From NCBI GenBank assembly GCA_033964015.1, contig CM066913.1, forward strand, positions 26,872,790-26,936,789: a stretch of 64,000 nt of DNA, given 5' to 3'. Below, in pieces: positions 8,441-31,152 of the stretch. Below the pieces are notes generated by a model. That model did no database searches, was not told the origin of the DNA, and saw only the letters and a program-made list of their open reading frames with translations. Origin of the DNA: Scolanthus callimorphus. Its lineage: Eukaryota > Cnidaria > Anthozoa > Actiniaria > Edwardsiidae. The translations under genes and the position numbers were made by a program. The stretch's first letter is position 1; the number at the start of each line of letters is the position of its first letter.

Positions 8441-8618
8441 TTTTCATATTCTTTTTTTCATTTCTGTAGGTGAGCGCTTGTTTAGAAAAAAATTCTAAGT
8501 GCCAGTGAGCATTCCTCGATTTAGGCGTGTGTCAAAGCTGCCATCGCCGCCATTTTGAAATCTCCCCACAGAAACTAAAAAAGAACTCAGTTCGCGCAGC
8601 CGAAAGCACCATAGACTT

Positions 8619-10036
8619 TTAAAGTGCCACTAAAGGCAGAAAACAACTTTATTTCATCAAAAAGTTCCATTATCCAAGCGAGCATTTGCGAAATAAAAAT
8701 GTGTTTTGCGCGCGCCGTGAATATTTTATTGATTTTTGAACATTTCCGATCGGCGGTTTTCTTTCGTTCAATTTTCGCGGGGGCCGAACAATTATCGACT
8801 GTGACGTCAAAAGAAGACATGTGACTTTATCACAGAATATAATTTATGTGGACGAAAGATGAATGCTGCGTCTTGAAAGACGGAAAAGTACCCGGGAAAT
8901 GGTTCTATGAAACTAGCATTGTGTGTCCAGCAGACTCCAAGAAAGATATTAGCGTCGATATTTTACGGTGTATTGCGATAATTCGAACAGAAATAATCCA
9001 AAGAAGACGTGAGAGCGAATAATATCGGCAGCAAGCGTTCCCCGGTCTGTTTATTGCTCGAAGAAACACTCATCATTTCTGTAATTCGCCGAATTGAGAG
9101 TCTACAGCCTGAAGAACGAATCACCAGAAAGGAATAAGGAAGATATACCGCCGTGTGTGATGATATTGTTGGAATAGCGATCGATCGAGAGAGGAACTAA
9201 TCGGCATGAAAGACGTGACACATTACTACGCACCCTTGAGGAGAGTCAAACACAATATCATGCAAAAAACTCGAAATACAAATGGTTTGCGAATCCGTTT
9301 ATGTGCCTTGACATGTTTAGCAGACACCAAGGAAGATATCAGCATCGATATTTTACTGTTGTATAACGATAATTCGAACAGAAACGGCCCAGAGATATCC
9401 TGCGAGCAGAGCTTCTGTAGTCAAGAGAAGCGAACAGAGGGACAGCGCGACTCGAACAACAATTTTGTACAAGGCAAACGCATTCTTTTCAATTCTTCCT
9501 GTAACTACGAATTTGAACTCTGCAAATATGGAAGAGGCAATTTATTCATTTCAGAGAGGGACGACTGTATCTGGGAATGAATAGTTTATATAAGGAAGCG
9601 AACGAACGGTTTTAAACGAACCGGACTCTAAATGTAGCGCGGAACCTGTAGCGCTGAGGGATTAAACGAAACGATTTTTCAAGAACACCACCAATAACTT
9701 TATGTTAAAAGAGTTACTACCGAGCCCAGATAGCCAAAAGACTAAAGTTCTTTCTCTATTGGAGCCATACATCGAAGTTATTGATGTGATGTCAATGTAT
9801 GAAAATAATTAATAGGAAATGCATTTGGGACCATTTGGAGATGCAATTTCATGTTTTGGTGAACAAAATCCTTTACCAGAGTAATTTTAAAAATATTCAA
9901 ATTATGTAAGCACTTTTTCAAGCTAGACATGCTACTCAGTAATTGTAGTAACACCAAAATAAATTCCCATTGGAGCCTGTAACAGTAATTTTCAAAGTTG
10001 AAACAAATAGTGCAAACAGGAAACAGGACTGCACAC
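8619..10036 (+). repeat. Left 1.4-kb inverted arm (copy A)
   Basis: Matched in reverse complement by 27436-30639 minus the insert at 28663-30427. It contains a 124-codon ORF (9206-9580), but the reverse copy at 28.0-28.2 kb breaks that frame, so it is probably not a gene. An internal diverged duplication (GA(T/A)ATTAGC(G/A)TCGATATTTTAC-like blocks) lies at about 8945-8998 and 9342-9396. Confidence 0.8.
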
Positions 10037-11022
10037 GTTTGCACAGAGGTTATTTTTGTTTTTCTTGTAGGGGAATTTAGGGGGCCTGCTCAACCAAGGA
10101 AAAATAAATTTCAATGTCAATATAAATAGCTCGTTGTGAGAAAAGTTATCCAGCTGCAAACTATAATTGTAAAAGCTTTTAGATTATTCAGTGGAGAAGT
10201 TGTTGAAAAATTCCAGCCAGTCTCATCCAGAAAAAATGTGGATGAGAAAATGTCAGCAAAGTCAGTTCCTGCTAGCAGAGGCCACTTCTCTCTTGTTTTG
10301 AGTTTTGCATTGTTGGAAAACACTAAAAGTAAAAGAAAATGCAGGGAGGTGAGTTTAAAGTAGCCTCTGCTCGCAGGGAACAAAGTCAGGTAACTCTTTT
10401 GCACTAATAGTTCAGTTTTGAATTCTCAGTTCCAATGCTGAATAGGCATGAGTGGTGCATAAAGACAGAAGGAGCCTCAGTTTGAAGTTGAGAAAATTGT
10501 GAATACCATTGAAACGCTCCCACAAGTTTGTCTATTGTCTCCATTCAAGCTTCATCAGTTTCTCATTGCTATTTGCAACTTTCTCTGCTTCAAACTGAGA
10601 CTCCCACTGTATTTACATGCCTGTTATGCATATTCAGCGGTAGTACAGAGAATTCGAAACTAGACTATTGTGAGAGGCCTCTGTTTGCAGGGGAGTGTAC
10701 GTGTACCTGGGAAACAATAGAAAGCCTTTACCTGCCCATATGTATACAAGATATGAAAAGAATTCCCTGCTGATGCTGAAAATGATCTGTCGACTGGGAG
10801 ATGATTAGTATTGCTTGGAGAGTTGCAGTTTTTGAATGAGCCAGATAGATACATAAGAGAGCAAAATAGATTTTTAACATTGGATTTTATTTCTTCAGGG
10901 ATCATTAATTTTCTATTATGGGAGGGGGACAGAACCAGAAAGGGGGGCTGTTCAGAACAGATGTTTTCCGTTGTAGGGAATGGGCCTTTCAGAAAAATAA
11001 AATTTAATTATCCAATATCTAA
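10037..11022. other. No gene recognised
   Basis: Short diverged inverted blocks are present: CCTGCTAGCAGAGGC-type at about 10268 with its inverse at about 10366, and CTCAGTTTGAAG at about 10476 with its inverse at about 10587. No coding evidence. Confidence 0.4.
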
Positions 11023-11119
11023 TAGCGGAACTCTGGTGGAGCCCCATAGGCTAATGTGTGGTATTAAAACAAAATGAAATAAAATTAAACAAAAATGAAA
11101 TAAAAGTAACCCATCGAGC

Positions 11120-12570
11120 ACATTTCGCGTGGTTATAATTTCCGATGGATAGCCGCTGGTGTAAGTATCGCGGACGTGGTCCGTCGTTTTTACGTGCCCA
11201 GGCCAGGTTCCTCAGCCTGCCCCATTGCCAACACAGCTGAACACAGCTAGGAGTAATGTCGGAGCGAAAAATTTTCAAGTTCTCATGGCAAAATCAAATG
11301 TAAATCGACTTTTCTGCCAAAATAGCAATCGCTAGTATATATTTTACATGTCAGCGACGTTTTTGATCGTGATTGTTGGCAGAGTGGAATGAAACTGAAG
11401 TGTAGACTGTGAAGTAATCGATGAGAAAATCAACTTCACATGTTTAAATCACGCTATAAACGGCTTTTGATTGCAAAGAGAAGAACAAGAATTGCACAGG
11501 ATTGTTTCAACTAAAGCACTGAGGGGATTAATTGTCCAAAACAAGGATTTAACTCAACAATCGACTCTTTAACTTCACGCGTGCTCGACGAGAAAACCAT
11601 TTCACTCGATAAGAGGGAACTTTGTGCATGCTGATTCCCGGGATAAGCATTAGATGGGAAAAGGCCATAGAACTTTATGGAACTTTATGCCACCCGTTAC
11701 ATCGAAATGCTTTACAGGCGTTTAGCAAGGAAGGAAACTGAAAGAAGAAATTGAAGCAGGTAAAGCTGTTGTTTAAAATGAGACGCTTTTCCATTCAAGA
11801 CGAAAACCAGAGAAACAATTTATTGGCTGAATTTATGAAACACGAAAGCTAACTTAATTATTAAGAACTACTTAAATTAGCGTATATTTTAGTTCTGAAT
11901 TTTTAAATAGTACCAAAGTTTGAGTATTGGAACTAAAAATAGATGTTTGGTGTGAGGAAAAGGTGTTGGTTATCGATTTTAAGGGTGATTCGCGATGTTC
12001 TTCAAGCTGAAGCCATTTTAATCGATTACACACAATCATATCCAATAGAGACTCACAATAAACTATGTAAAATCTATCCTAAATAGCCCATTGTTAGACT
12101 CCTCTTATCTAGCTCTCTAGTTAGACACTGCTATAATTCATGGGGACATCATGTAGACTTTATTATATACATTTTGAAATCACATTTATCTCTATCTCGG
12201 GTATCGATCAATTCATCAGCTCTATTTTACGGTTTTCCTTTCCATCTCTTTGTATGCAAAACAGTTCATTATGTATGCAGAAAAGTCTATGGAAAATTGG
12301 AGAGTTTGTGCCTTGAAAAACATACTGAGTGGATTGTTGTTCTCCTTCAAAAACATCTCTATTGTGCTTGGCGTGATCTTGAGGGACTCTGGCTCATAGA
12401 CTTCGCCATTATTTTTACTTCTGCATAAAACTTGCCAAGAACTTTATCTAACTCGCTGGGTGCCATGGCATTTTCGTAAAATCCTGATTTTCAAGATGGC
12501 GGAAGGAGCTGATCGGACAGGAGGGAGGTCACTTTTTGCGAAAAATACTTGTAGCACTAGAAATTATAGG
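11120..12570. other. No gene recognised
   Basis: Unique-looking AT-rich DNA. The ORF at 12174-12428 has no recognisable domain or splice context. Confidence 0.4.
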
Positions 12571-12781
12571 TAATTGTGCCTTGTTTATATGGTGATTGTC
12601 TTGTCTTCTTTTCTAGGGTTTAAGAGCCCTTTTAGGCATGAAATCTAGTGTTGTTATTTCTTGTCTGGCTCCCAACAAACCCTTTTGTGCAACAACAACA
12701 TTGAATTCCATGCTCGAAGGGGCTCTTAAACCGCAGGAAAGAAGACAAGACAATCAACAGCAGATAAACAAGGAGCAATTA
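12571..12781. mobile_element. ~210-bp imperfect hairpin MITE
   Basis: The left arm (TAATTG.GCCTTGTTTAT ... GATTGTCTTGTCTTCTTT ... GTTTAAGAGCCC) is repeated in inverse order at the right. The loop is about 12655-12700. The overlapping ORF 12638-12955 is a shadow of this hairpin and following DNA. Confidence 0.7.
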
Positions 12782-13274
12782 CGACTCAATCTCTTTTCAA
12801 TTGCTGTAGCATTTAACGCAAAGAATGTCCATTTCGTATGGCATTTGGATTGTCCTGTGAGCCTCATGTTTTTTCGCTGGACTCAGGATTTGGATTCGGT
12901 GCAGGATGTGGTGGATTATTTGCTTCAAAACTGTCAATGTTGTGCAGAAAACTGATGTCAAACTCTGGAAAATTCCTGAGGAAAAGTCAAAATATTCTTC
13001 AAGGTACTGTAATAATGAAAGTTATTCAAAGTTTTGTTTTATTGTGATTTTTGTTATCAAGCAAAAGGAGAAAGGGGAGATTCCACACCCAAAAGTGCAG
13101 GAAAATTGTTTTTCTGCTATTATTTTCCTGCAAATTTAATTGCTCAGCGCCTTGTAATACTTAAATCTGATTGGTTAATTTTTTTCTAGTGTAACATTCT
13201 GTAACATTCATTCTTCTGGCTAAGATAAAGATGCGATTCGGCTCCAGATAATGTGATTCGTGCTCAAATCGCAC

Positions 13275-13375
13275 TGCTGAGAGCCAATCAAATTTCAGGA
13301 TTTGCTAGTGATTTCAAAATGGATATAATAAACACTGTTATTATAACTCACTATCATAAATTTGATTGGCCGAGA
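13275..13375. repeat. Small inverted repeat (~100 bp)
   Basis: GAGAGCCAATCAAATTT at the left and AAATTTGATTGGCCGAGAGC at the right pair as short terminal repeats. Confidence 0.5.
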
Positions 13376-13405
13376 GCAAACAATCAATTAGAACTCTATG
13401 TCACA

Positions 13406-13470
13406 TGAACTTGACATGCTAAATAAATACGATATCTGCAGTGGATATTGCATTTAGCATGTCAAGTTCA
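13406..13470. repeat. Hairpin with perfect 18-bp arms
   Basis: TGAACTTGACATGCTAAA pairs with TTTAGCATGTCAAGTTCA around a 29-bp loop that itself contains ATATC/GATAT. Confidence 0.85.
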
Positions 13471-14248
13471 AAGTCTGCATGTTCCCAAGCCCCTCATCCA
13501 TGTCTTCATTTTCAATTTGAACAAATCCATTTTGGCATTGTATCAATTGGTATTTTTTTTAAGTATAATAAAACAATTGTTGAATACAGTTTTCGCATGA
13601 CATCATGAGTTAGCAAAACCTCATGCCTGTGTTATCTGCCTCAGCCTTCGAAAAGGATATAAATTATTCCTTTTTTGATGCTGATGTGAGGTATTTTGTT
13701 TTATTTTCCTGACTCTTGCACTGAAGTAGGAACTTAGTAATATAGAATTTGGTCTATTGGTCCTGTTTTTGAGGTTTTTGGAGGGGCATGATTGTTGGCT
13801 GACGCTCAAGCAATAAGCACTATTAAATTAGGAAAATTTTACCAGAGTTGCATGTGGCATTTCATTTAGAGGAGAATATCTCAAAAACACCTACACATCT
13901 CATCGTTTTCTTAAAGAGATTTTACATGTAAATGTATTTTTTAAAAACAACACTTTACAAACGTCTTATTCTCAATGCCATTATACTTATTTTATCAATA
14001 AAAAATAGAAAAAAAAGGAAAGTTGGACAAAAAGCTTGTGTCTATGTGTACTTGAAAATTTGTTTACCTGAGATAAACAAATGTAAAATAAAATTATTTT
14101 CAACCACTATAGTTTTGGTGGGGTGTTACAGAACGTGCAAATTAGATAACTGAGTGAAAATGTTGTAAAATTGTAGGTACTACAGGGTCACCTTTTCCAG
14201 TGATTGGCCAGATGGTCAGTGAAGTTGTGTGTATTATTGTCGCCGTGT

Positions 14249-15093
14249 GAGTTCCGCTTTTAGGCAGTGTCTAAATCTATATATTAACAATTTTATTTTG
14301 TACTCTCTTTGCTACCCCTGAATTGGCATATACAGTGCATAAATAGAGTGGGAGCCACAATTTGAAGCAAAACAATTGTAATACCAACTCAACGATTGCC
14401 TTAAAATATCCATCATCCCCCAAATTGCAACAAGAAGCTTGAGAGTTCAATATTTGATTTTTTTTTTCCATTGTAAAGCATGCAGCTAGACCCCTAGCCT
14501 GCATAGCTGCTCTAAAGGGAGGGGACGCAGGCTTCTAGACCCCTGAATATCATTGTAATCACAATGGTGTGGTTCCACGAAATATCCACCCTCCCTCATA
14601 CCCCCATAATGCTTGTCAGGGTTAGCAAAACATGCCAAAATTCTCCCTACTTTTCTTTTCTTTAATCTTTGAGACACCATAACTTTCACACCCTGGGTGT
14701 AGATGGATACATAAGCACCGTTTCTGTACAGTGGGATTTATGATCAATTTAACATGGAAAACCACAATGGTTTCCCACGCTACGAGATTTCTATTTTTGA
14801 AAAGGGCATACTAAATTTCATCATGTTTACAGATTTATTTTTGATGAATTGTAGAATTCAAAAGTGCTGCCTAAGCTTTCCTTCAGATAACCTTGACACC
14901 CTTATCATGCATACTGATTCCATTTATTGTGGATGGAAAATGGATTTGTCCATAGGATTTGTAATTTTGCTATTGTTGTGGCAAGACGGGAAAAGAGTCC
15001 CCCCATTCTCCCCACGCCCTTCCTGATAAAATTTGGTACTGTAGAGCTCAATAAAAGTAATATATAGATTTAGCCACTGGCTAAAAGCGGAGC
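14249..15093. mobile_element. 845-bp element with palindromic termini
   Basis: The ends at 14249-14286 (GAGTTCCGCTTTTAGGCAG) and 15055-15093 (its inverse with changes) are inverted. Each end is itself a small stem-loop (TTTAGSCACTGSCTAAA). The same end motif occurs alone at 16081 and 56820. The interior has no convincing ORF. Confidence 0.6.
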
Positions 15094-17439
15094 TCCTGGT
15101 TACATATTTTTCCATGTGAATGGCAAATTGCAATACTTTATTTGACATGAGTTAATGTGTCATTCCAAAATCTGGGATCCTACCATTAGATTACAAGCAC
15201 AAAACTTATATGTATTTTAGAGCAGGATTGCGTGAGCAAAAACTTGAACAGTCAATAAGACTATTTATTGGGTAAGAAGGAATGGGCAGCAGTCGCAACA
15301 AAAGCTACCCACCCTGGATTTTTTAAATTTGAACCAACCACCCTGCAGTTCCAGTGATTTTATCATGACCACCCTGGAAATTGTGCTTACCCACCCTGGA
15401 ATGTCGTATTTAAGGGTGCCCGCCCTGAAATTTCAAGCTCTACTTCCACCCACAGTGGAATTCTGAGGAATTACCCAACTGCCCAATTGGCATGGGGTGA
15501 GGCACTCCATCGTATGGTAGATGGATATGCTAGGGGGTTTTTTTTGGGAGGCTCCTGAGGTCTGCCATAGGCATGAGGAGGATAGGTAACAGGTAGGTCT
15601 GCCATAGGGTAAAGTTTTTTCTTGTCTCTGATAGGGTATGTATTACAGTATGGCTACCAGCACTTAGTGATAAAGACAGTTTATTTTAGAACCTTTAACA
15701 CATTAGCAAATTTTTTACTTATTTTTCAAGGAATCACTTCCAGAGCCAAACGGGTTACCATGGAAACACTAGTTAGCATATGGGTTTATGAGGTCTTGGT
15801 CATTCTTTGTTGTTACCAAGTTTGAATTGAATCGAAATATCCAAACAGAATTATACATAAAACATTGTTTGGCCTCTTTGCCCAAGTCTTGTTGTGACGT
15901 CATTTTTTGCTAATTTGCATTAGTACAAATCTTGAGTATCAAAAAAGCTATGAACCAAAAGAGCTATGAACACGAAAAAAAATTCTTTCGTATTTTGAAT
16001 GTGCAATCAAATAAGCCATTAAAATTTCAGCCTTGAGTTGCACTTTAACCAAACCTATTATACAATGGCTGACTGCATTTAATATATAGATTTAGGCACT
16101 GCCTAAAAGCGGAACTCCAATGTTTATACCTCTTACAGAACGACTAATTCTTATACAATGCAATAATATCATAGCAAATTTCTGACAATAATTGCCCCAT
16201 TTCACTATGACGTCATAACAAAACACTCTATTGTTTTTGCGCTATGAGTCATGGTCGCCAGAGGGGACAGCAGCATTTAGAAATGATCAAAACTAGACTA
16301 TAATGGACTATAATTGATAAGCCAGTTGGCTAAGGCAAGTAACGTTTCTGAGCTACTTGTCCTGATGGGACTAGTGATCAAAAAAGTCAAGGTCGAGCAC
16401 TCACTCATACCAGTTGGGTGGGGGTGCTTGTTGGACAAATAGAATTTGAAGAGCTGTGTATTGTGGACATGTATTTTAACCCCAGAGAAACATAACTTCC
16501 CATTACAGAATCCTAGAAATCTGGCAAAACCTAAACATCTGAAGATTTTTTTTTCCTTGGAAAGAGTTGCTTAATAATACTGAGTTTCCTAACTACCCCT
16601 AACAGAATCCTAGTCAGAAAAGTCAGAAAAAAAACCCCTTAAAAATCTGTACTGTAGTATAAAAATCATAATCATAATCGTGTTTCCAAAAAATATCCTT
16701 ACCCCCTCTATGTAATTTCCAAAGAAAAAACAGTATTTGTATAGAAAAGATCAGGTAAATTGACAGCATTTTCAATCCCTTCGTAGGAGGGGATGGATAA
16801 TATGGAACCAGACATTTCCAGAAAATATCCCCCCACAAAGAAGGGTGTTGAGAGGAGACCCCCTCCCCTCATCCCTCCAAAGAAAGTAAATTGACTCCCC
16901 ACCCTCACCCCTCTGGGATTTCCAATGTCCTTCCATGACCTACGGATGGAAAACGGGAGACAAAGCAGGTCATTCAAGGTGTTAGAAAAAAAATAAGGAA
17001 CTGAATGGAAGAGCAATTTTATCCTACCCAACTATATGAACTCTTCCATACCATAGAAATCAAAACCAAAATCAATTTATGTCAAATTGGCCCCCTTGGA
17101 TGAATCACAAGAATAATGTTACTAAAATTAATAGAAAATATCCGAAAACATAGCAAAATTTTGTATGGGTGACCAAAACAGAACAAGAACAACTATAACT
17201 TTGCAAAATCACTCCATCATGACAAGCCTTCGAACCCCCTCTTTGAACAAATAAGTGAAATTAAACAATCAAAATTAGGCAAAAATTAATGTACTTTTTT
17301 ATTGGAGTTTTGCCAATGTAAATCATTATTTCTTACAGTTCCAAATAAAAAATATATCTAAGTATATCTCCTTGTAGGGGGATTTACTGGAACTCCAGTG
17401 AGCAATGGTTTAAATCCAGTTTTAAGCCTTGTTCTGGTA
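15094..17439. other. No gene; low-complexity and short tandem motifs
   Basis: At 15305-15470 a CCACCCTGGAA-type motif is repeated about every 40 bp. At 16081-16118 there is a solo copy of the TTTAGGCACTGCCTAAA stem-loop motif. The ORFs at 16623-17031 (minus) are proline/glycine-poor chance frames across C-rich tracts. Confidence 0.4.
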
Positions 17440-17872
17440 GGGAGCATTCATTATTTATGCCAGGGGGTGGGCTGGCAAGATTTTTCATTCAGCCCCCAAA
17501 AAACTTGACCCCCCTCAAAGTATCAATAAAAACCTCAAAACCCCTTTAGGCAATTTTTATAATAATGATAACCCCCTCCCCCCTTTAGATGAGGAAGAAA
17601 TGTTGGGACATCTAGATACCACGTTGACAACAACCAGTATTTTTAAGACATTTCCTGATGCGTGCATAAACAGTTTGTTGTAATTTTACAGGTGTGTAAC
17701 CTCTTGTATCCATATGTTAAATTTACGTCATTGCTGCCATAAAACGTATAAGATGAATCCTCACAGTTGTTTTCATATTTTCTGGTGACCCTCTACTTGA
17801 ACGTGCCAAATTTAACATGGTCCCCCTTAATAATTGCCAGCCCACCCCCTGGCATAAATAATGAATGCTCCC
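17440..17872. mobile_element. 433-bp Harbinger-like MITE
   Basis: Inverted ends GGGAGCATTCATTATTTATG and complement, about 40 bp each. The right flank is TTA, while the left flank is GTA, a likely decayed TTA target duplication. GG-type ends with 3-bp TTA duplications are typical of PIF/Harbinger. The interior is C-rich and non-coding. Confidence 0.65.
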
Positions 17873-18137
17873 TTAAAGTAAAAGTAAACGAAAAACTACC
17901 AACAGAAAAATGAGCATAGCCCCCTTACCCACTATAAGGTGAGATCCTGCTTTGGAATAACATATCAAAATAGTTCTGTTGAAAAAGTGTCGACTTTCTC
18001 CAACTTCCTTATAAGGAAATATCTGCATACCATATTTGGAATTCCAGTAAGTTTTTCAATATTTCTATTGGCCTAGGAAACTTAAAACTCAACCAGAACT
18101 CAGATACACTCGAGAAAGGATGATATGCACATTTTCC

Positions 18138-18542
18138 CGGGGAGGGGGGGGGGGGGGGTGCTCGTCGGGAAAATTGATTTTGACCCTAAGGGATAGCAAA
18201 ATGGGTGTGGCAAACAACAAATTTACCCCTAAAAGAAAGCAAATTTGGCGTGGCGACTGCCAATTTACCCATAAAAGATAACAAATTTGGCAGGTCAAAA
18301 CAAATAAAGGCGAAATTTTAGGTCTTTTAGGGTTTCAACCAAGTTTCCTTTGTAAATATCGGTTCTAGTGTCAGTACCAATATATTTCTGGGCAAGGATT
18401 GGTCTGAGACTCCCCTTAGGAATAAGTTTGATTTTAAACACCCCTAAGAGATAGCACGTCTGTTAATTTTATACCCTAAGGGATAGGACGACCACCCCCG
18501 TCTGAAAATATGGGGAGTCCCCCCCCCCCCCCCCCCCCGGGC
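18138..18542. mobile_element. Element with G/C-run ends and possible 10-bp duplication
   Basis: It starts with CGGGGA plus a long G run and ends with a long C run plus GGGC. CACATTTTCC stands directly on both sides (18128-18137 and 18543-18552). Inside, CCCTAA(G/A)(A/G)GATAG blocks repeat several times. A 9-10-bp duplication would suit a MULE-like element, but class is not established. Confidence 0.5.
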
Positions 18543-19801
18543 CACATTTTCCACTGTGTTTTTCATGGTCAAGAACCTGGAAACAAGGCAGTCAAGACAC
18601 CACAGGAAGCTTGGTTCGATGTCTAAAAAGGAGGCATGTTTGAATCACAATACTGATAAAGTACAAATTCATGGTCTAGTTAAAAGTATAAGTACAAATA
18701 ATCACAAAGTGTTTTGAAATTTTGCTTTTTTGCACTTGGGATTTCAGAATTATGCGAACACCAAAAAGGAAAGAGTTTGAGTAGGCTATACTTTTCAGTT
18801 GATATGTTGCATTCATTTTTTTTGTTACAAGATTGAAAAAATACTTCTGGAAAGGTGGTATGTTTATATGAACCAAGCCACATTCCAGGGTTTTTTCACA
18901 GTGCTTATTGCAAATGGAGTCTAGAGTTACAGGGGGGGTAAGCTGATGCCCTGGTAAAAGTCTTGGCTACCTTCTTGCACCTTGTGTTGCAATTCATGTG
19001 TGAACCAGCCCTAGCATCAGCACCTGAGAACTAAAAAAAATCAAAGTCAAACGGGACACCTACAGCTAAGTAGCCTTAGTCAGTAAAAGAAATTTACAGG
19101 CTCGGAGGGCTGGATCATCAAATACCATAACTGCTTAAAGTACCTTTAAAGTCCTTGAAACAGCATTTAAAATTCCACAGAGTGTGGTGACAAATCTTAA
19201 CCTAAGTCTGAATTCTAAGATTCCAGACCTCTAGCAAGAAAATCAGAAAACATTCATTTCATGGAATCTCAAAGGCCAAGGACGTCAAACCAGGGACTTT
19301 AAAAATCTGGAGATTGTCTTGAAATGGCTAAATTTCTTGAAATATTCCCGGGAGAAATACAGTAAATGTATGGCAGTCATCTTGAATTTTTGCTGGGAAA
19401 CGAAGCGAAAAATATTGAGACGCCTGGCAAAACCGGGAGGGTTGACGTTCCTGTAAGACCCATGCAAGAAAAAAGAAAGATGATAGTATCTTTTGCATAA
19501 TATCATATTCCAGGTAGAAGTAAATAAGAAAATGTGCACAGGCATTCCCCCCTGCCCCTTTGGAGTCAGATTGGCTGTTTGGTTTTACCAGGGTTTTACC
19601 CTGCTTGCGGGGAAAAAAGTCCAGACCCAAATGATTTTTTCTTAATTGTCCGTAGGTGGTTATAGAACTTTGTTTCTTTAGAATTAGCTTGTAGAAATGA
19701 GATATACAAGCTAAATTGGCATATAAAATGCACAGTGAATAAAAGCATCTTGGCAAACTGAAAGACAAACGTGTTTTCACTGTTTTAAAGTATTTACTGT
19801 T

Positions 19802-20862
19802 GTAATAACATTTTTTGTCAACAGAGATCAGGCCGAGACATTTTCTTTATTTGAAGGCAGCTTGTTAGGAAATGTGAGCGATTTTTCTCCCACGCTCTAT
19901 AAATGCAAAGTTAGCTTGTAGCAAATGTCCAGGGGTTAGGGGATTTTTTTTATGTATCAGTCAATTCCAGCGGGGACCATCCCCCCCCCCCCCCCCCTGG
20001 GACACCGTGGGGCATTTGCGCACCCCTGCCTTCCCTGGGGTGGGGAATTTTGAGATTTTGCTGGTCCCAGGGTTGGGAATTGTTTTTCCCCGGGGGAGGG
20101 GTGTGGGGAATTTCGGTTTTCTAATCTCAAGCGCTTCGGGTTTTGCGAACTACAACACCAGTTACAATAACTATCGTTTGGCAGTTACAAAGTCCCAGTT
20201 ACAGAAAATAACGCCACATATAATATAAATGCAGAGCATGGTTTCGCAATTTCGTCTCAGTGGAAAAACATAAAAATGAATTGACACTATAAAAGAGTTC
20301 CAATTTAGCAAAAAGTCAAGTAACATAACTGTCAAATAGTTGCTCTGCAAATAGAATAAAGGTAAATTTCGCATTGAGAGATTCCGGAGACAATTTGCAG
20401 AAATGGCTATAACGGCGAATGGCCTAGGAATGTCTACCGATATTGTACTAATACCTTAGTTTCACTTCTTTATTTCTATTTTGTCTCACTTTCAGTGAAG
20501 TAAGAACTCGTTCAAAGACGAGAAAACTAAAGTACATTTACTGAAACAAATTATAAATGCTCAGACAGTATAAATGGAGTTGAAGTTTTTGCTGTGAAGC
20601 TTTGTCATGCAGAGTCGATGGAATCCTACCGTCTTTTTCTCGTCCCGGGGGTGGGGAATTTTCAGTTTTATTTTTAGAAATGACCAAAATCCCGGGGGTT
20701 GCATGGTAGCGCTGGAATTGACTGATACATTATTGCCAAAGCTTGTTGTGCCTGGGAACTTTGTTATGCATGTGAGCAGAGAAAATCCCTTGCATTTTCT
20801 AGCAAACTGCCTAATAAATAAAATGTCTTAGCCTGATCTCTGTTGACAAAAAATGACATTAC
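19802..20862. mobile_element. Palindromic element split by another MITE
   Basis: ACATTTTTTGTCAACAGAGA at about 19808 is inverted at about 20835-20857. The arms continue for roughly 130 bp (19802-19950 against 20731-20862). The centre is occupied by the 19952-20730 element. Confidence 0.6.
19952..20730. mobile_element. 779-bp MITE with perfect 20-bp TIRs
   Basis: ATGTATCAGTCAATTCCAGC at the left and its exact complement at the right. Internal GGGGTGGGGAATTTT blocks repeat near both ends, and a C run lies at 19981. Inserted in the centre of the 19802-20862 palindrome. Confidence 0.8.
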
Positions 20863-21996
20863 CAGAGGATTAAAAGAGTGGAAAATGCTTTTGTCTTTCA
20901 GCTGGCTGTGATGCTGGCTTTATTATCATGATACAATGTTACAGTCAATCATTATTGATTTCTGTCTATGATTTCAAGCCAATGCAAACCCCTTTTCAGC
21001 AAAAACGTTTTCACCAAAACACATGTAGTCTCATCCACAAAGCCAAGCTTCAAATATTGAGTTCAAGTCTAATTTCCAATAGTCAAATTAAAGAGAGTTG
21101 CAGGGACTGAAACATGACAGGGGACTGAAACATGATTCCAATGTGTATTTACAATTATCTTATTGCAAGTACAGGAAATATGAAGTATAGATATAGTATT
21201 TTAAATATGATATCCTAGAGATTCATGTGTTGCATTTTCAATGGAGAACATGCGCCCTACAAGCGAAGAGATGAGCAAAGCACTCAACTTTGGAACTAAG
21301 TATTCTTACTTGAAAACTTACCTGAATATCGTATCTTTTCTTCTTGAAGGAATCTTGATGCCAAAGCATTTCTGTCGTTAGAAACTTATTCAGCTCCAAG
21401 GATGTCCTTGAGAAGCGAGTCGTACATTGTTCTTTCCATGTAAAAATATTGAGTTTTCTCCTAACAGTATTACAGTTCGAGCGACATGTTTTCTTTTCTT
21501 GAACAAGCCAACTGCAAAGGCTGGCTAAATTCCGTGAGAATTCCGTGTCTATGCCAATTAAATTTATTCCGTGCTTGAGCTGTAACAAAGCTGCAAATTA
21601 TTGTCCTTGTTTTTGCAATCTAAAATGATTCATAGCTTGATTTTAAACCTCTTAACTTAATTTCTTTCTGGTATGATCCGGCTGAACTGAACCACTTTAT
21701 CGATTACTCATCCTTCCCTGATCCCAGTCCATTCTGCCAGCAACCAAAGACAGGTAACCCAAAGGCTTCATGTATCTTTTCCGAACATCCCCGAAAGTTC
21801 TTTCAAAGTTTTGTGGCCAATAACAATGATACAAGCTACAAGAAACTGCAGATGGCGGACGAAATCTTGACTTGCACAAGGGCCGCCTAACCAAATTGAA
21901 TATCGTAACCCATGGCAACACACCATGTACGCACTCAGAAATAAGCCGACGGTACACCAGCGGCTGTCCAACGGAAAATACAACCACTCGAATACA
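20863..21996. other. No gene recognised
   Basis: Minus-strand ORFs at 21238-21588 and 21697-21987 have no recognisable domain. The first contains a CAG|GTAAGT donor-like site on the minus strand (about 21323), but no matching exon was found. A GGGACTGAAACATGA doublet lies at 21103-21135. Confidence 0.35.
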
Positions 21997-22129
21997 GCTC
22001 GATGGGTTACTTTTATTTTATTTTTTTTAATTTTTTTTTCACATTTTTATTTATTTATTTTTTTCACACATTAGCCTATGGGGCTCCACAGGAGTTCCGC
22101 TATAAACCGCACCAGGGCTGAGGACCTCC

Positions 22130-22410
22130 CTTAAAAAGACCCCTCCCCTGGAACTTCCACTCGTGAAACCGACCCCCACCCCTGGAATTTCCACTCATGA
22201 AACCGACCCCCTCCCCTTGAATTTCCAACCCCATAAATGACCCCCACCCCTGGAATTTCCATTTTTCTGGCAAAATACCCCTGGGAAATCTCTTTTTGAA
22301 TAAAATGTCCCTGGAAAATCACCTTTTTTACTCCTCCCCCTTGGAATTTCCAGTCTCCAGACACACCCCCTCTCCTGGAATTTTCAGAGTTTAATACAGC
22401 CCCCCTGGAA
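22130..22410. repeat. Degenerate minisatellite, ~35-45-bp units
   Basis: CCCCTGGAATTTCCA-type blocks recur about seven times with ACCGACCCCC-like spacers. This creates a glycine-rich false ORF on the minus strand. Confidence 0.7.
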
Positions 22411-22557
22411 AATTGTCCATAGGTCCTCAACCTCCCTGGTTCGGTTTAACAATGCAATCAGCCAATGAGTAAGACAAGAAGTTTATATTTCATGCTTAAA
22501 AAAATCATGAATAGTTTATAAGAACAATACAATAGAAACACAATAAGAATCACAGGA

Positions 22558-23828
22558 CCGTAGCATCCCGAGGGAGGGGGGCTCCCCCTATTTTTGGGGT
22601 GCAGGTACTTGTCACACCTTTCAGGGTTCAAAATCAGGCCTCTGGAAAAATTAGAAAACTTGCAAAAAAAAATTCCAGATAGGTACCCATTAGAGGTCCA
22701 TTCTAGCAAATCAATCAAATTACACTTGTTAGGGACCGTTCATTTTTTATCAGGGAGGGGGCTGGTGGAAATGAGGGGGTACCCTGTATTTTTTGGTTGG
22801 CCCCCCTTTCATGTCCGTATTTTTTAGGTGCCCCCCAAAATCCAATGTATTTTTTCTGGTGCCTCCCCCCCCCCCCCCTCTATTATAAATGCTTGCCCTG
22901 TAAGGTAGACTCTTGCCTAAGTGATGCAGTCTCATTCTTCTTAAAGTTTTTCTTACTTCTGTCAAAGCTAAGGAACCGATCCCCCCTCAGAACTATTAAA
23001 CGTTTTCGTGACACCCACCTCAGGTCCTAGTAGAAAAGATTTTACATAAAGAGGGGGTCACATAATTCTTTCGTTGCGGCCAACTTTTGATAACCGCATT
23101 TCATCAAGCCTCAGTAAAAGGGTAAATGAAGGTTTTTTGTGTATAGTCTGTCAGGAGCCCAGAAAGCTCCTAGTGAAGGGATCCTGAGCCTTTAGGTAAT
23201 ATTTTTCATGCGCGCCGCAAATGAAGAAATTATTATTATTCATGTGCGTGAAGCGCAGCCCAAATGACGAATTTCTATGCTTGTTGTAAGTAAACGTTGA
23301 ACTCACGCTTATACCTGTGGGGTGTTCTTTCGTACGTAGACTGCCCGGCAGGCCTATCAGTGCAGGGCATTTTTGAGAGGGTTTATTTGTTCTTATCAAA
23401 AAGTAAAAGAGCATATTAGATGTTAAATTCGTCATACGCGCGAAGCGTGCCGAAATTTTTATTAAGTATTTAGTGAAATCAGAAACATATAAGCGAGTTG
23501 AAACATGTAACAAACATATTGCATGCTGTAAAAAATACAAACTTTTCGTTTCCTCCCTGTTATGTGCTTGTATTTTATTGGGTGACCCCCCCCCCCCCCC
23601 TCATTTCCACCAGCCCCCTCTCCCTGATAAAAAATGAACGGTCCCTTAGTTGCCTGAATTTCAGACGTATTCTCCCTCGTAAAAAATATATGTCTTGCTG
23701 ATACCTTTTTAGGAGCCCAAGTCAACTAAGCGATGCCATGTATGGAACCTTTTAGGGATGAAATTGAAAGTTCCTGACAAGCACCCCTGCCCCAAAAATA
23801 GGGGAGTTCCCCCTGGGCATACTGTAGC
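22558..23828. mobile_element. Outer inverted-repeat element hosting a Harbinger-like MITE
   Basis: The left arm (CTCCCCCTATTTTTGGGG ... TACTTGTCA) at 22558-22640 is inverted at about 23735-23828. The middle is largely the nested 22732-23645 element. Confidence 0.6.
22732..23645. mobile_element. 914-bp Harbinger-like MITE
   Basis: GGGACCGTTCATTTTTTATC at the left and its exact complement at the right (about 50-bp TIRs extending through a GGGGGCTGGTGGAAATGAG block), flanked by TTA on both sides (22729-22731 and 23646-23648). The interior ORFs are short and unrecognised. End type and TTA duplication match PIF/Harbinger. Confidence 0.8.
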
Positions 23829-24830
23829 ATGTTGTAAATCTGATACAGCCACTAGTGGTTGTAGCTAATTTGCATAGCAACTTTAATGAAACATATCAAG
23901 TTTCACTTCCAATTGTTTTAAAACAGACGACACTAGAAGGGAGGATGTCTTCTCCATTTTTTTAAGTAGTTTAAAACATTTGCAACAATTAACAACTATT
24001 TATAGTAAAAATACACTGTATAGCGGCTTTCACATAACTGCTGTGAAAACAATTCATGAGTAATTCATTATCCTATCAAATGCATAGAAATTCAACAATT
24101 AACCAATCACAGAGCGAGAGGTGATTCACAATCTCTCTTTTTGTCAGCAATTTAATTAGACGTATAATTGTGTAATTATTTTCTCTACACAATCTGATTG
24201 GTATAAGGATCAAAGACCATGCTCTTGACCAATCACAACCCAAACCAATCACAATTAGCAAGTTATTTGTAATTACTCATGACAGTCATGTGGAAACTGC
24301 TCTAATTATGTTTTACTTGTGTCATGGTATGGTCTTTCCGAAAGCCGCCTCTGGCAAAAGCCACCTCTGGCTGCTGTTGTCACTGAAATTTAAAGAAAAT
24401 AACCAATAAGTCTGATGAGCCTCGAAGACAAAACCTGCTTATCAAAACTATGGGCCCGCTTCATGCGCAACGAAAGAAAAGTGTGATCCCCCTCGACTAC
24501 CTGTAAAATGCCTTCTACTATGTCGAAACTAATTATTTTTTTTATATTTAACATATAAGAATACGATTGCATTTGTAAAAGGAACAGCCCTGGAATAGGT
24601 CTGCACACCACAGAGCAATATTATTCACCATCTACAGAGCAATATTATTAATTAAATGACTAGAAACCGCTACTAGTATCTTTAAACATGGGGAAATTCG
24701 GTAAGACAAAAAAAAATCATGTGAAAAATACAGAAAAAATTCCTGCAAAGCCATGGCTTGCTAAAAAAACATTCCTACACAAATTCTAACCAGGAAAAAC
24801 ATCCTGCATAACCAAAAACCTCCTACCTAC
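23829..24830. other. No gene recognised
   Basis: AT-rich DNA. Short inverted CCAATCACA-type words at 24100-24255 suggest a worn inverted repeat. Confidence 0.4.
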
Positions 24831-25216
24831 CCCCCCCCCCCCCCCCTAAAATTTCTGATGGTCCATCCCTTTTAAACTACAGTCTATGAATTATTGTGTC
24901 TATGTTTAGCAAAATTTACATCTATGTTGTGCAAAATGTATACATTTCCATGACTTCAGTTCCCATGCCTGACACTATCGGACAGAGAAACAATGAATCC
25001 AACAGTAAATTAAAAGTAAAATGTCCCCCCCCCCCCCCTAAAATTTCTGATGGTCCATCCCTTTTAAACTACAGTCTATGAATTATTGTGTCTATGTTGA
25101 GCAAAATTTACATCTATGTTGTGCAAAATGTATACATTTCCATGACTTCAGTTCCCATGCCTGACACTATCGGACAGAGAAACAATGAATCCAACAGTAA
25201 ATTAAAAGTAAAATGT
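24831..25216. repeat. Tandem duplication, 192-bp period, C-tract junction
   Basis: Two near-identical 178-bp copies (24847-25024 and 25039-25216) are each preceded by a C run. They differ at very few positions, so the duplication is recent. Confidence 0.9.
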
Positions 25217-26576
25217 CAGTGCATATTGGCACTGATAGACAGCAATAATTATTCCTAGATAGATTTCCGCTTGCCTGTCATATGTGAAATACTCTGTGAA
25301 GCTTCCCCGCAGCCAGGAATACATCTTAGGGAATTTCTACAAAATTAAATTAGCGCACAAAAGTTACTCGTTGTAGCCGAACCAAATTGAGAAGTCGAAA
25401 ATGTCTCAATTTGAATTGAAAATGTCTCAATTTGAATAGCTTAGATACATTAGAAAATTCAAGAATCATTGTACCATTATCTAAACCTGAAGTTTGGAGC
25501 TGGACGAGTCCTATGATGACCAAAAGCTCGCGAGCTAAAGATGGCAGCCATGCCGCCGATGCGTGACAAGTTTTTCTTTCATGACATTCTCCCGAGTCTC
25601 TCCGCCAAAAGTAAACACAGCCACGGCAGTTGTCAGCTCCACTATAACTTTTATATCACTAGAAAATACGGTATTCTGATTGCAATACAGAAAAAAAGCT
25701 TAAACCACAATGGTTGAGCTTGTAAAAACGACTAATCTCACGAGCGGCCACTATCGTCGCATTCAACTTTCATCTTTTTCAAACGAGTGAGAAAACAGCC
25801 CGCGAAAGTTCGGGAAAAACACGAATGAACGTTTGAAGTTTGCGGTAGATAAACTCTGATTACTGCTGAATGCTCATTTTATACTCTAGCTACAAAGTTC
25901 AAGTACCTACCTTGAAAATGGGTTTCTACGCTAGCTCTTCGTTCGTCCGTCTTCTTTTGTCTTTTTCGACTTCACCATTCACTGGTATTCTTCTCTACTC
26001 CTTCTTTCCCTCGACAAACTTTTTTTTTCTATAATCATGACATCGGTCACTCTTCTTCCCGCTGGTAACTCATTTTCTAAAATCGTGATTTGTCAGCTTG
26101 ATTTCAAGAGTTTTTGATGAAGAGTAAAAACCGTCGTGCGTTGTTTCGTTTGTTCACTTTGCACTCTCTTTGGCGGTGGTTGATGCTTTGCCCGGCTTCT
26201 TCCCGTCGCTGTTTCTAGCTCTCTCCTCGAATAATTTCTTCCGCTTCTTCTATCAAAATTCTCTCTTTCATTTTTCTCGTCTTGTCATCGTTTTTTTTTA
26301 TCAGTCAGGAAAAAGAACTCTGTACAGACGAACAGACGACAGAGTCCTGCAGAAAAATGACAAACAGTTCCGGGGTTGCCTGTGGTGGGGCGCGCAAACA
26401 GACACGGACGCGCCAGCGATACCATAATGGGAATACCGCTGAGCGTTGAAAAATGAAGTCGATAGTATACCTGAGTTCTTACTTGAGCTATTGAATTCTT
26501 CATACGCGATACCTATGGTGCTCCGCTCTGCGGCCTTCGGCCGCAAAGGAGCTCCGCTATCATCAGCTCATAAGCA
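25217..26576. other. No gene recognised; locally GC-richer block
   Basis: 25500-25640 is GC-richer, with a 58-codon ORF starting at ATGGCAGCCATGCCG. It could be an old promoter/first-exon region, but no splice partner is seen. 26519-26557 is a hairpin (TGCGGCCTTCGGCCGCA core) bordered by the GGAGCTCCGCT word shared with other elements here. Confidence 0.3.
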
Positions 26577-26712
26577 ATTATTGGATAAGGTTTTTGTGAT
26601 CTCCAGAATAAACAATGTCGAGACAGGTGGAATCAGGCGAGGCCGTGAGGTAGGCCTGACTTGGCAAGACATTGTTTATTATGGAGATCCACAAAAACCG
26701 AATTCAATAATT
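26577..26712. repeat. ~136-bp hairpin MITE
   Basis: AATTATTGGAT...AAGGTTTTTGTGATCTCC...AATAAACAATGTC is inverted at the right half (GACATTGTTTATTATGGAGA ... AAAACC ... CAATAATT). The centre is about 26625-26675. Confidence 0.75.
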
Positions 26713-27435
26713 TTTTATTATACATTGATTCAGTAAAAATACTTTTCTTTCTGTCAAGCAATTTATTTTACACAAGCGCCTCATTAAAATAGTGAAAGTG
26801 CTCTAGTCCCATGATTCATTGTGCATGTTTCAAGAATCAGCTACCTTCAAACTCCCCCCCCCCCCCCCCCCACAGAAGAATTGCAAGCTTGAAAAAACCC
26901 TCTCCCTTCAGAATATTTCCAAATGCTGCCCATCCCTGTGGTACATATATTTTCTCGAATTTCCCTTTCAATTAAAGAGTCTAAAAATAGTACATTATTT
27001 TAATGGTCTGAATATTTTCTGGAATTAGATGGCATTAATACTGTTAGCTTATGTATTCCAGAAAAATAAAACACTCACCACAGAGAGAATTTCTCCATGG
27101 ACATCCCCTCTGGAATTTCTGAAAGAGTGATACAGTATAATGTTTCGGAAATTGCATCTTTACAACCTGGAAAAACAAGCAATTTCCCCCTTCACCTCCA
27201 CCATTACATTTCCAACATTAAAAATATCCTCTATGGATTTTTGGGCCACTTGATTTCACAAAAATTGTCTCCTGGTAAACTTGATGAAACCTTATCTAAC
27301 ATAACGCAGATAGCTATTGAGTTACACATATACATGTACAAAAATATTTTAATTCCCATGGCTTTGCTCATGCTTAAATTGGCATTCAATTGTGAACTTC
27401 TAGTGGACTGATGTTTTCAATATCTGGTGGTCAAC
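26713..27435. other. No gene recognised
   Basis: The ORF at 27097-27411 has no recognisable domain. A C run lies at 26854-26871. Confidence 0.4.
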
Positions 27436-30400
27436 ACAGTTACACGTTTTCCCGTGTTTGCACGATTTTGCACGACGTTTCAACTTTGAAAATTATTTTT
27501 ATAGGCTCCAATGGGAATTTGTTTTTGGTGTCTAGCTGAAAAAGGTAACAGTATATGAATATCTTTGATTTTAGCATAGATAAAAGATATTGTTCACCAA
27601 AACATGAAATTGCTCGTTGTCCAGATGGATTTCCTGTTACTTAATTATTTTCACACATTGACAATAGAAAGTGTCACATCCATAACTTCGTTGTATGGCT
27701 CCAATAGAGAAAGAACTTTAGTCTTTTGGCTACCTGGGCTCTTTTGGCTATCTGGACTCTTTTAACATAAAGTTATTGGTGTTGTTCTTGTCTTCTTGGA
27801 AAAATCGTTTCGTTTAATCCCTCAGCGCTACAGGTTCCGCGCTACATTTCGACATCCGGTTTGTTCGGTTTCGTTCGTTTAATACGGTTCGTTCGCTTCC
27901 TTTATATAAACTATTCATTCCCAGATACAGTCCCTCTCTGAAGTGATTTATTGCCTCTTCCATATTTTCGGAGTTCAAATTCGTAGTTACAGGAAGAATG
28001 GAAAAGAATGCGTTTGCCTTGTACAATTGCTGTTCGAGTCGCGCTGTCCCTCTGTTCGAAGTCCCTCTGTTCGCTTCTCTTGACTACAGAAGCTCTGCTC
28101 GCCGGATATCTCTTGGCCGATTCTGTTCGAATTATCGTCAAACAACAGTAAAATATCGATGCTGATATCTTCCTTGGTGTCTGCTAAACATGTCAAGGCA
28201 CATTAACGGATTCACAAACCATTTGTATTTCGAGTTGTGTTTGACTCTCCTCAGCGTAATGTGTCACGTCTTTCATGCCGTTCATTTCCTCTCTCGATCG
28301 ATCGCTATTCCAACAATATCATCACACACGGCGGTATATCTTCCTCATTCCTTCCTGGTGATTCGTTCTTCAGGCTGTAGACTCTCAATTCGGCGAATTA
28401 CAGAAATGATGAGTGTTTCTTCGAGCAATAAACAGACCGGGGAACGCTTGCTGCCGATATTATTCGCGCTCACGTCTTCTTTGGATTGTTTCTGTTCGAA
28501 TTATCGCTATACACCGTAAAATATCGACGCTAATATCTTTCTTGGAGTCTGCTGGACACACAATGCTAGTTTCATGGACTTGCGAGCCATTTCTCGTGTA
28601 TTTTTTCGTCTTTCAAGACGCAGCATTCATCTTTCGTCCACATAAATTATCTTCTGTGATAAGGTGACTCATTCGAAATTCAAAATGCACCCAACTGTGT
28701 CTAGAGCGCAAATCTGCGTCGTCAAACTAACGGCTATAACTTTTGTGTCTTTTCCTCTATTGTTATAATTATTTTTTCAAATCCTACTTTACTGATGTAT
28801 AAATATGCTACTGGGAACCGATCTTCTTGAAAACATTTTTGGAAGTCACAATCTAAATTTTTGTGAGGCCCTAATTTCATATTCCGGTCGTACTAGAAAA
28901 AAATTTTGCCGGTTTTTTTGGCTGAAATTCCAGGAATCGATTCCAGTTGTAGTGATCTCAATTCAAGTGAAGTTACATAAAATTCGTCGGAACAGAAACG
29001 CGGTAATAAAAATACCGTCAGTTATGGTCAACTTTTGCCAGATTAGAACGCTGATTCTGCTTGGCTTGAATTGAATTTTAATAGTGCTCCGAAAACTCAT
29101 TATTTTGGGCTCTTCCACCGGCACTATGTTGTATAGTAATGTATTAAACTTTACCGAAGGTCAGATTGTAAATACCATGAAATACTAAAATGTTCGAACA
29201 TTATCTACCGAGGAAAGAAATTGTGAAAGCGCAATGAATTTATTACAAGAATGTCGAGTTAAAATGTGTTGTTATTACGTATTATTTCTTGCTAAGATGT
29301 ATATAGACGAGAAGCTTGTGGCATTGGTAATATTTAGTAAGCAAGTTTGAACATCTTGCGTGCTTATTTGATATAGAAGAAAATTGTTAAAGTTACGGCG
29401 GTCGCCCTCTGGTCATGCACGCAGATTTGAAGCTGTCTTGTTTATGAATGGTAATGAAATCTCACATTTTGCCAGGGGGACATAGTAGGCTAACTCTAAT
29501 CATCGAACAAAGAAAACGTTTATCGTCGACTCTTTTTTTGTTCCATAGGGACTTAACAGACAATTGCTATTTCGGAGCGTGACTGCTATTGATTAGATTT
29601 GACCTAATGAGCTCCCCCTGGAAAAACTTCAGATTTCATTATCGTTCATAAACAAGAGAGCTTCAAATCTGCGTGCAAAACCAGAGGGCGAATGTCGTAA
29701 CTTTGTAATTTTCTTCTATGCCAAATAAGCAAATATAATGGTCAAACCGGGTTACTAAGTTTTACCAATGCCACAAACTTCTCGTCTATATAAATCTTAG
29801 CAAGAAATAATACCTAATAACGACACATTTTAATGCGACATTCTTGTAATAAATTCATTGGTCTTTCACAATTTCTTTCCTCGGTAGATAATGTTCAAAC
29901 ATTTTAGTAGTTCATGGTATTTGAAATCGGACCCTCGATAAAGTTTAATACATTGCTATACAACATAGTGCCGAGGGAAGAGCCCCAAAAAATGAGTTTT
30001 CGGAGCACTATTAAAATTCAATTCAAGCCAACCAGAATCAGCGTTCTATTTTGGTCACAGTTGACCATAACTGACGGTATTTTTATTACCGCGTTTCTGT
30101 TCCGACGAATTTTCTGTAACTTCGCTTGATTCGAGATCACTACAACTGGAATCGACTCCTGAAATTTCAGCCAAAAAAACCGGCAATTTTTTTTCTAGTA
30201 CGACCGGAATATGAAATTAAGGCCTCACAAAAATTTAGATTGTGACTTCTAAAAATGTTTTCAAGAAGATCGGTTCCCAGTAGCATATTTATACATCATT
30301 AAAGTAGGATTTGAAAAAATAATTATAACAATAGAGGAAAGACACAAAAGTTATAGCCGTTAGTTTGACGACGCAGATTTGCGCTCTAGACACAGTTGGG

Positions 30401-30639
30401 TGCATTTTGAATTTCGAATGAGTCACCATAAAGTCACATGTCTTCTTTTGACGTCACAGTCGATAATTGTTCGGCCCCCGCGAAAATTGAACGAAAGAAA
30501 ACCGCCGATCGGAAATGTTCAAAAATCAATAAAATATTCACGGCGCGCGCAAAACACATTTTTATTTCGCAAATGCTCGCTTGGATAATGGAACTTTTTG
30601 ATGAAATAAAGTTGTTTTCTGCCTTTAGTGGCACTTTAA
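27436..30639 (-). repeat. Right inverted arm (copy B), carrying a foldback insertion
   Basis: Reverse-complement partner of copy A. The arm is continuous with copy A except for the 1765-bp insertion at 28663-30427. Ends with GGCACTTTAA at 30639. Confidence 0.8.
28663..30427. mobile_element. 1.77-kb foldback element with 4-bp target duplication
   Basis: Ends GGTGACTCATTCGAAATTC and its complement. The inverted arms are about 830 bp each, with the centre near 29545 (loop about 29490-29610). ATAA is duplicated on both sides (28659-28662 and 30428-30431). Copy A at 8824-8840 (rc GTGATAAAGTCAC) shows the uninterrupted site with one ATAA. No transposase ORF is present. ORFs at 28805-29074 and 29914-30129 are the two arms read on the same strand. 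The family is not recognised. Confidence 0.9.
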
Positions 30640-31152
30640 ACCTAAATGGTTCTATTACAGATTACATACAGGAATGTGCAGGGATATTTCTAATTCGAAA
30701 GCTTTGAGCTGAGAAAAATTTTCATTCAAACCTAAACAAACGTACGCCATTGCCTTTCTTCCCAGAGCACGCGGCAAGTCGAAATTACACATTTACACAA
30801 ACCAAAGCCATGATTAATATTCTCTAAGTATATATCCTGACGCTGTATCACAAAGCGAAGGACACAAACCAGAAGAGAATGATGAAAGATATCCATTGGG
30901 TGTGTTTTTTGTTGGAAAAGATTCGCCTGGGTCTAAGTTTTAATTCAAGCGAATCGCTACCATGTTAATGTCCCACGTACAGAACATGAACTAAAAAAAG
31001 AACTCAGTTCGCACAGCCGAAAGCACCATAGGCATTCCAAACCTAAATGGTTCTATTACAGATTACTTACAGTTATGTACAGGGATAATTTCAATTCGAA
31101 AGCTTTGAGCTTAGAAAAATTTTCATTCAAGTTTGAACAAACGTACACAGGC
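30640..31152. repeat. Tandem unit pair that held the 22-kb insertion site
   Basis: CCTAAATGGTTCTATTACAG and about 100 following bases occur at 30641 and again at 31041. The second unit also contains, just upstream (30990-31032), the sequence that precedes the 22-kb insertion at 8575-8612 (AGAACTCAGTTCGC.CAGCC). The second unit is therefore uninterrupted, and the first is split across 22 kb. Confidence 0.8.

Follow-up and report, generated by a model that had tools for sequence, protein, structure and literature searches.

Two kinds of transposon that duplicate TTAA on insertion bear on the locus described here. Kolobok elements are defined, in the account given by PMC9587614, by TTAA together with 5'-RR/YY-3' termini, and ten full-length Koloboks with AG ends are described from Xenopus in the part of PMC6004289 that deals with them. 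For piggyBac elements, the relevant section of PMC2872659 gives the terminal motif CC[C/T]T. We analysed a 64,000-nucleotide stretch of the Scolanthus callimorphus genome (GenBank GCA_033964015.1, contig CM066913.1; hereafter the window), in which a preliminary description had reported a 22-kb TTAA-flanked insertion. That this block is a nest of elements we regard as practically certain. Very probably it is a 5.5-kb non-autonomous TTAA transposon with inverted arms of ~1.4 kb (the carrier), which lies inside a Helitron-type repeat and was later loaded with inserts. The ends, the TTAA duplications, the sister copies, the uninterrupted sites of three inserts and the ends of four were read directly.

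Ends, arms and inserts of the block

The block between the two TTAAs is 22,013 bp long. AGTGCCACTAAAGGCAG occurs once per strand of the window, at 8623 (+) and at 30619-30635 (-), and both occurrences, which are exact complements, adjoin TTAA, as the preliminary description had reported for ends 22 kb apart. The ~1.4-kb inverted arms that it proposed also align, at 98% identity for the outer pair (8605-8830 / 30428-30653) and 84% overall, gaps counted, for the inner pair (8821-10023 / 27448-28668), in which two blocks reach 97% (8904-9226) and 96% (9268-9443); left and right differ at 0/208 positions of the outer ~208 bp. That description lacked the 1.77-kb palindrome interrupting the right arm, and its end at 31090 takes in Helitron sequence outside the TTAA element (Table 1). 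Its statement that no transposase is readable in the interior held: no Pfam match at E 0.01 was obtained for any of 19 scanned interior ORFs, drawn from the 143 stop-to-stop ORFs (55 aa or longer) with a start in 8500-30700. The Rfam and tRNA searches each returned 0 matches in the window, and a neighbouring ORF (33169-34125) had three unnamed matches in a protein search.

Table 1. Features of the block and its surroundings, in window coordinates
Feature	Position	Strand	Basis
Helitron-type host repeat, 5'-TC ... stem CCGTGA/TCACGG ... CTAG-3', A on the left and T on the right; encloses the TTAA element	7949..31441	+	ends set by complete copy in C3 duplicate
Left TTAA target-site duplication	8619..8622	.	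sequence and sister rows
Left inverted arm of TTAA element, AGTGCCACTAAAGGCAG end	8623..10023	+	arm alignment
TTAA element interior, part 1; last two bases are the TA duplicate	10024..11024	+	sister copies
Nested insert 1, 3.3 kb; starts GCGGAACTC, ends CTAAATCTATATAT; TA duplication 11023-11024, 14285-14286	11025..14284	+	absent from seven sister rows
TTAA element interior, part 2	14285..15059	+	sister copies
Nested insert 2, 11.5 kb; ends as insert 1; TA duplication 15058-15059, 26558-26559	15060..26557	-	absent from five sister rows
Second-level insert within insert 2; ends as insert 1; TA at 16080-16081, 22101-22102	16082..22100	-	end sequences
TTAA element interior, part 3; first two bases are the TA duplicate	26558..27447	+	sister copies
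Right inverted arm, inner part	27448..28662	-	arm alignment and sister copies
Nested insert 3, 1.77-kb palindrome; ends GGTGACTC/GAGTCACC; ATAA duplication 28659-28662, 30428-30431	28663..30427	.	splits right arm
Right inverted arm, outer part	30428..30635	-	0/208 differences from outer left arm
Right TTAA target-site duplication	30636..30639	.	sequence and sister rows
Neighbouring host-repeat unit with joined flanks, paralogous empty site	31001..31146	+	joined near 31041

At least four other elements have inserted into the carrier, which is nesting without a new giant element. The three TA-flanked inserts have GCGGA[GA]CTC on one side and, on the other, ...GAG[CT]TCCGC, a short hairpin and CTAAATCTATATAT, in this order; both such ends recur in L051 and in an insert of L044, and a single one in L037. 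The sister copy on C11 (L046) sits inside sequence matching the end of insert 2 (25658-26559). Because this sister copy landed in insert-2-like sequence while insert 2 sits in the carrier of the window, the periods of activity of the two families presumably overlapped.

The family of insert 3 is young. A 712-bp probe found 1130 candidates, and all 40 scored, the window and its duplicate on C3 among them, were 98-100% identical. Its relatives have their left end after TTAA at 6/6 other loci and TTAA on both sides at the 3/3 loci with both ends in the stretch read, versus ATAA in the window. The two arms of insert 3 are only 89% alike although its copies are nearly identical, so a family may have diverged arms from the outset, and we rejected arm divergence as a measure of age.

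Sister copies, host repeat and native size

Apart from the duplicate, ten paired loci (L031-L033, L037-L046) were compared with the window. They align, with indels of their own, in blocks within 8619-11022, 14278-15059, 26558-28668 and 30428-30639, four blocks that are nearly complete in the C1 copy L041; in a few copies (L040, L046) repeats within insert 2 are briefly matched as well. Sister copies without the window's inserts measure 4.7-5.4 kb (L039, L041, L042/L043, L046). Site 1 is uninterrupted in seven sister rows (CAATATCTAA[TG]AACAATTTT), site 2 in five (AATAAA[AT]GTATCATCA) and site 3 in three as well as in the window's own left arm (GTGATAAAGTCAC), and for the second-level insert no uninterrupted site was seen among the copies read. 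Since the sister rows run uninterrupted at the insert sites, the native element is ~5.4-5.5 kb long with ~1.4-kb inverted arms, and ~16.5 kb of the 22 kb were added later; the window minus its inserts comes to ~5.48 kb, versus 5.37 kb for L041. TTAA stands on both sides in 9/11 rows, of which at most 8 are independent because the flanks common to C7 and C19 make these one event; in the other two, the left end is missing (L045) or the right side is altered (L037/L038). The 6 ORFs of L041 that were among those scanned gave no Pfam match at E 0.01, and the carrier apparently has no genes of its own.

The preliminary description had offered a large non-autonomous TTAA transposon among its explanations. 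An element of ~22 kb moving as such would agree with the intact ends and arms, with the identity of the outer arms and with the existence of a second copy, of 23.6 kb, on C3. The C3 copy, however, has the same flanks as the window (blocks 98.6-100% identical over 7153-30969, and a further match at 36700-37500) and therefore arose by duplication of the whole locus and not by transposition. The paired copies read lack inserts at the window's sites, and the one other copy of ~20 kb that was read, on C43, is filled by a Polinton-type element instead. A native size of 22 kb is thus very improbable, and we rejected it, as we did a giant element, on the sister copies without inserts; the suggestion of a giant-element remnant found no support for the same reason. 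Closest among the earlier options was a foldback whose loop had accumulated insertions, and "non-autonomous TTAA transposon" fits the 5.5-kb core.

Polintons (Mavericks) make 6-bp duplications and encode a protein-primed polymerase B. If the arms were terminal repeats, a remnant of such an element, or of another giant virus-like one, would suit the size of the block and its long arms, and the sister copy on C43 does hold a Polinton-type element in its right arm. That element, however, is delimited by separate ends (AGTAGTATAACCC) and by a separate 6-bp duplication inside the arm (GTCGTC/GCCGTC, one difference), while the window has TTAA and none of its 19 scanned interior ORFs matched a polymerase, integrase or capsid-like protein, so that we rejected a Polinton remnant in the window as next to impossible. 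In the C43 element, 4/10 scanned ORFs had matches. These comprise polymerase B (E 2e-46), an integrase (just under the cut-off) with a chromodomain, an adenovirus-type protease (just under the cut-off) and an RNA-helicase-type domain, with a GRF zinc finger on the opposite strand. At C1:30646000-30651000 the flanks are those of the same locus (96.6-96.9% identity in alignments including flanks) and the Polinton-type element is absent; the two loci are alleles or paralogues. The most interesting by-product of the analysis is thus a locus whose two copies differ by a Polinton-type element, carried by one and missing from the other.

Over the outer ~208 bp, the differences within a copy were below the between-copy mean in 8/9 copies, C43 being the exception, and as low a value arose in 11/100,000 permutations; the truncated L045 was left out, as were C19 and the C3 duplicate, which repeat C7 and the window. 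Short MITE copies behaved in the opposite way in 5/5 cases, and the pattern of the long copies would also arise from a source whose two arms were equal, so a claim of arm homogenisation was dropped.

Helitrons begin with 5'-TC, end in a hairpin followed by CTRR-3' and insert between A and T without a duplication. The host repeat fits this description as read from the sequence, without folding, and a complete 1.0-kb copy of the same type (TC...CTAG, between A and T; L034 6566-7601) in the C3 duplicate has two end sequences in common with it. The equivalent of this C3 insertion in the window (13566) is empty. The preliminary description had placed an empty site at 30990-31060. The flanks are indeed joined there, but the joined unit is a diverged neighbouring unit of the host repeat (CACCATAGGCATTCCAAACCTAAATGG) without TTAA, and in joined-flank units (near 31041; L034) ATTCCAAAC or ATTCAAAC takes the place of the CTTTTAAAC of the occupied site. 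To judge from these sequences, the empty site is therefore paralogous, and we rejected an allelic one. The nesting suggests the order Helitron-type repeat, TTAA element, inserts. The carrier would have landed in the Helitron-type repeat, and at least three separate insertions would then have followed, namely those of two TA-flanked elements, one holding a further one, and of one palindromic element.

Copies across the genome

The searches covered the 597-Mb, 302-contig assembly that contains the window. With a 602-bp arm probe, 746 first-look candidates were found, and the 40 that were scored gave 67 matches. The end TTAAAGTGCCACTAAAGGCAG, at one mismatch or fewer and with TTAA in front, occurs 500 times in the 597 Mb (254 forward, 246 reverse) versus 0 for the reversed control pattern, and its number is therefore above chance. 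Among the 100 of these 500 places that were listed, all exact and on contigs C1-C5, 60 ends form 30 head-to-head pairs within 30 kb; 25/30 span 240-539 bp, and the others 1847, 4844, 5375, 22021 (the window) and 23594 bp (its duplicate). The remaining 40 have no partner in the list, where a partner carrying a mismatch would not appear. Six short copies that were read have outer arms of 85-156 bp, 82-87% identical to those of the window, and a seventh, L051 (1.8 kb), holds a TA-flanked insert.

A 36-base pattern of the long-arm subfamily (two mismatches or fewer) matched 51 ends (28 + 23; control 0), and 34/51, counted from the listing, are head-to-head neighbours forming 17 pairs 3.9-23.6 kb apart, a 19-kb pair on C13 among them. 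The long arms thus do not occur solely as solo repeats that never pair, the pattern that the preliminary description had named as speaking against it. The 17 pairs, only some of which were read, are partly dependent, since C7 and C19 have common flanks and both the window and its duplicate are counted; a further pair on C3, 99 kb apart and probably two elements, was omitted. Six of the 17 measure 3.9-5.4 kb and 11/17 exceed 6 kb, so that loading of long-arm copies with other sequence seems common.

Superfamily, transposase and related systems

The ends of the carrier bear on its superfamily. Both the window and the matched ends read AG...CT, and TTAA duplications flank most sister rows, as in Koloboks, to which the carrier probably belongs. 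The TTAA duplication would equally suit a piggyBac, and the genome has 88 matches to the piggyBac family (PF13843). Inverted ends reading C[CT]CTTT next to TTAA are present in 7/10 fetched piggyBac loci (5 distinct; two pairs look identical), and the other 3/10 have none within the stretch, from which it follows that some piggyBac ends in this genome depart from CC[C/T]T. The carrier, by contrast, ends in AGTGCC, and AGTGCCACTAAAGG was present in 0/10 of these loci; we rejected a piggyBac identity on the ends and consider it most improbable.

A THAP profile gave 440 candidates, 150 of which were scored, and two of them lie, by eye, ~290 bp inside a carrier-type end (C11:22009416, C35:412413). 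The two agree at 99% over their first ~690 bp and may therefore represent a single copy, as its alleles or its duplicates. On C11, an arm of ~210 bp, 92% identical to that of the window, comes first, followed by a THAP ORF (E 8e-11, 43 bits) and, further on, by an exon with VSDRH...FDLWHL (DxxH). This putative DDE exon has a sub-threshold Pfam match to a Mutator-like transposase (E 0.012, 15 bits versus a cut-off of 26.5), and its 70 aa have 68 matches in the genome at 31-100% identity, the best two being the C11 and C35 copies. A protein search with the THAP ORF gave no matches. As no right end was found within 13 kb, we do not present the C11 partner as an intact autonomous element, and no two-ended autonomous copy (AGTGCCACT ends with a THAP/DxxH transposase) was found here. 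For an independent check, another THAP element was compared at the left sides of three copies (C14 twice, C21), out of five THAP matches with one score. In two of these comparisons the similarity begins exactly at TTAA|AGTGCATATG, which in the first C14 copy lies 343 bp upstream of the THAP match, and in the third it begins three T's earlier, the T's being common to both flanks by coincidence; judged by these left ends, this element too begins at TTAA|AGTGC. The carrier would have moved by cut-and-paste, in trans, through a Kolobok-type DDE transposase that bears a THAP domain.

Sola3 elements also target TTAA. A TTAA element of a third superfamily such as Sola3 would be compatible with the duplication, which alone does not separate superfamilies, and with a THAP partner that is one-ended, but the 5'-AG/CT-3' ends make this unlikely, as do the gene with THAP and DxxH that follows a matching end and the other THAP elements that begin at TTAA|AGTGC. 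The link between AGTGCC ends and a THAP/DxxH gene suggests where the numerous short derivatives may have come from, and this origin can be tested; in addition, clean ends were obtained for several mobile families of this genome, and an apparent giant TTAA element resolves into a nest of smaller ones. Loaded elements such as those of the window (22 kb) and C43 (~21 kb with the Polinton-type element) could conceivably move as one unit because their outer arms stay intact, although we think it quite improbable that the resident THAP transposase can still move them. If it can, loading would be a first step towards a fusion like Teratorn, which joins a piggyBac and a herpesvirus in fish, here of a Kolobok with a Polinton.

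AGTGCCACTAAAGGCAG was not found in the literature searched, nor was any paper joining three of foldback, long inverted repeats, nested insertion and Kolobok. Drosophila FB elements have 9-bp duplications and short tandem repeats in their arms. The carrier resembles Foldback elements in its long inverted arms and snap-back structure and differs in its 4-bp TTAA duplication. KolobokP has long terminal direct repeats around its interior, whereas the arms here are inverted, and the carrier is accordingly no KolobokP. Coral piggyBac-like MITEs (CMITE), as far as PMC2872659 describes them, are likewise non-coding, numerous and flanked by TTAA duplications, but they have CC[C/T]T ends and ~100 bp, in contrast to the AGTGCC ends and ~500 bp or 5.4 kb found here. 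The carrier compares best with Kolobok and T2-MITE of Xenopus, to which the accounts in PMC6004289 and PMC9587614 ascribe TTAA duplications and 5'-AG...CT-3' ends (5'-RR/YY-3'). Kolobok and its MITEs, as described there, also have many short derivatives, and here a THAP gene with a DxxH exon stands behind a matching end; what sets the carrier apart from Kolobok in these accounts is a 5.4-kb element with ~1.4-kb inverted arms and no coding match found.

Second copy of parts of the window

Two parts of the window, 7153-30969 and 36700-37500, have a second copy on the same contig, at a distance of about 210 kb. It is 98.6-100% identical to the window and also contains the inserts; either the region was duplicated recently or one haplotype was placed twice. 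Compared with the window, this C3 copy (L034) lacks the stretch 8146-8520 and carries two additional insertions. A full-length Helitron-type insertion was found in the duplicate, and the equivalent window position, 13566, is empty (A^T site). The window also contains an ORF of 151 aa, which we take to resemble a LINE reverse transcriptase; a Pfam scan of this ORF at 0.01 gave no match. A tandem repeat of about 14 copies of a 46-bp unit was observed as well.

Positions of features in the window, in fetched loci (L) and on contigs (C) of the 597-Mb assembly G000
Feature	Position
Window 7153-30969 and 36700-37500, second copy	G000:C3:26669000-26694000 and 26701103-26701903
Helitron-type insertion	L034 6566-7601
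ORF	window 7054-7509 (+)
Tandem repeat	window 57919-58558
TA-flanked family, window	11025-14284, 15060-26557, 16082-22100
TA-flanked family, L037, L044, L051	
Polinton-type element locus (L031-L033)	G000:C43:474900-497400
Locus without Polinton-type element (L045)	G000:C1:30646000-30651000
Palindromic family member	window 28663-30427

Sister and short copies of the TTAA element

On C43, the arm of a TTAA element houses a Polinton-type element whose ORFs include polymerase B, integrase/chromodomain, protease-like and helicase-type ones; L045, a locus on C1, has flanks that match and lacks the Polinton-type element. Short copies (L047-L050, L052, L053 and others) possess the AGTGCCACTAAAGGCAG ends of the TTAA element and span 240-539 bp in 25 listed pairs.

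Nested insert families

Ends of the TA-flanked family are asymmetric, with GCGGAGCTCC on one side and GGAGCTCCGC, a hairpin and CTAAATCTATATAT on the other, and its L037 and L044 inserts contain internal tandem repeats of about 128 bp.

The palindromic family is found at TTAA, and its window member used an ATAA target. Identity was 98-100% among 40 scored of 1130 candidates, and the family is young. Its GG...CC ends are compatible with Kolobok too.
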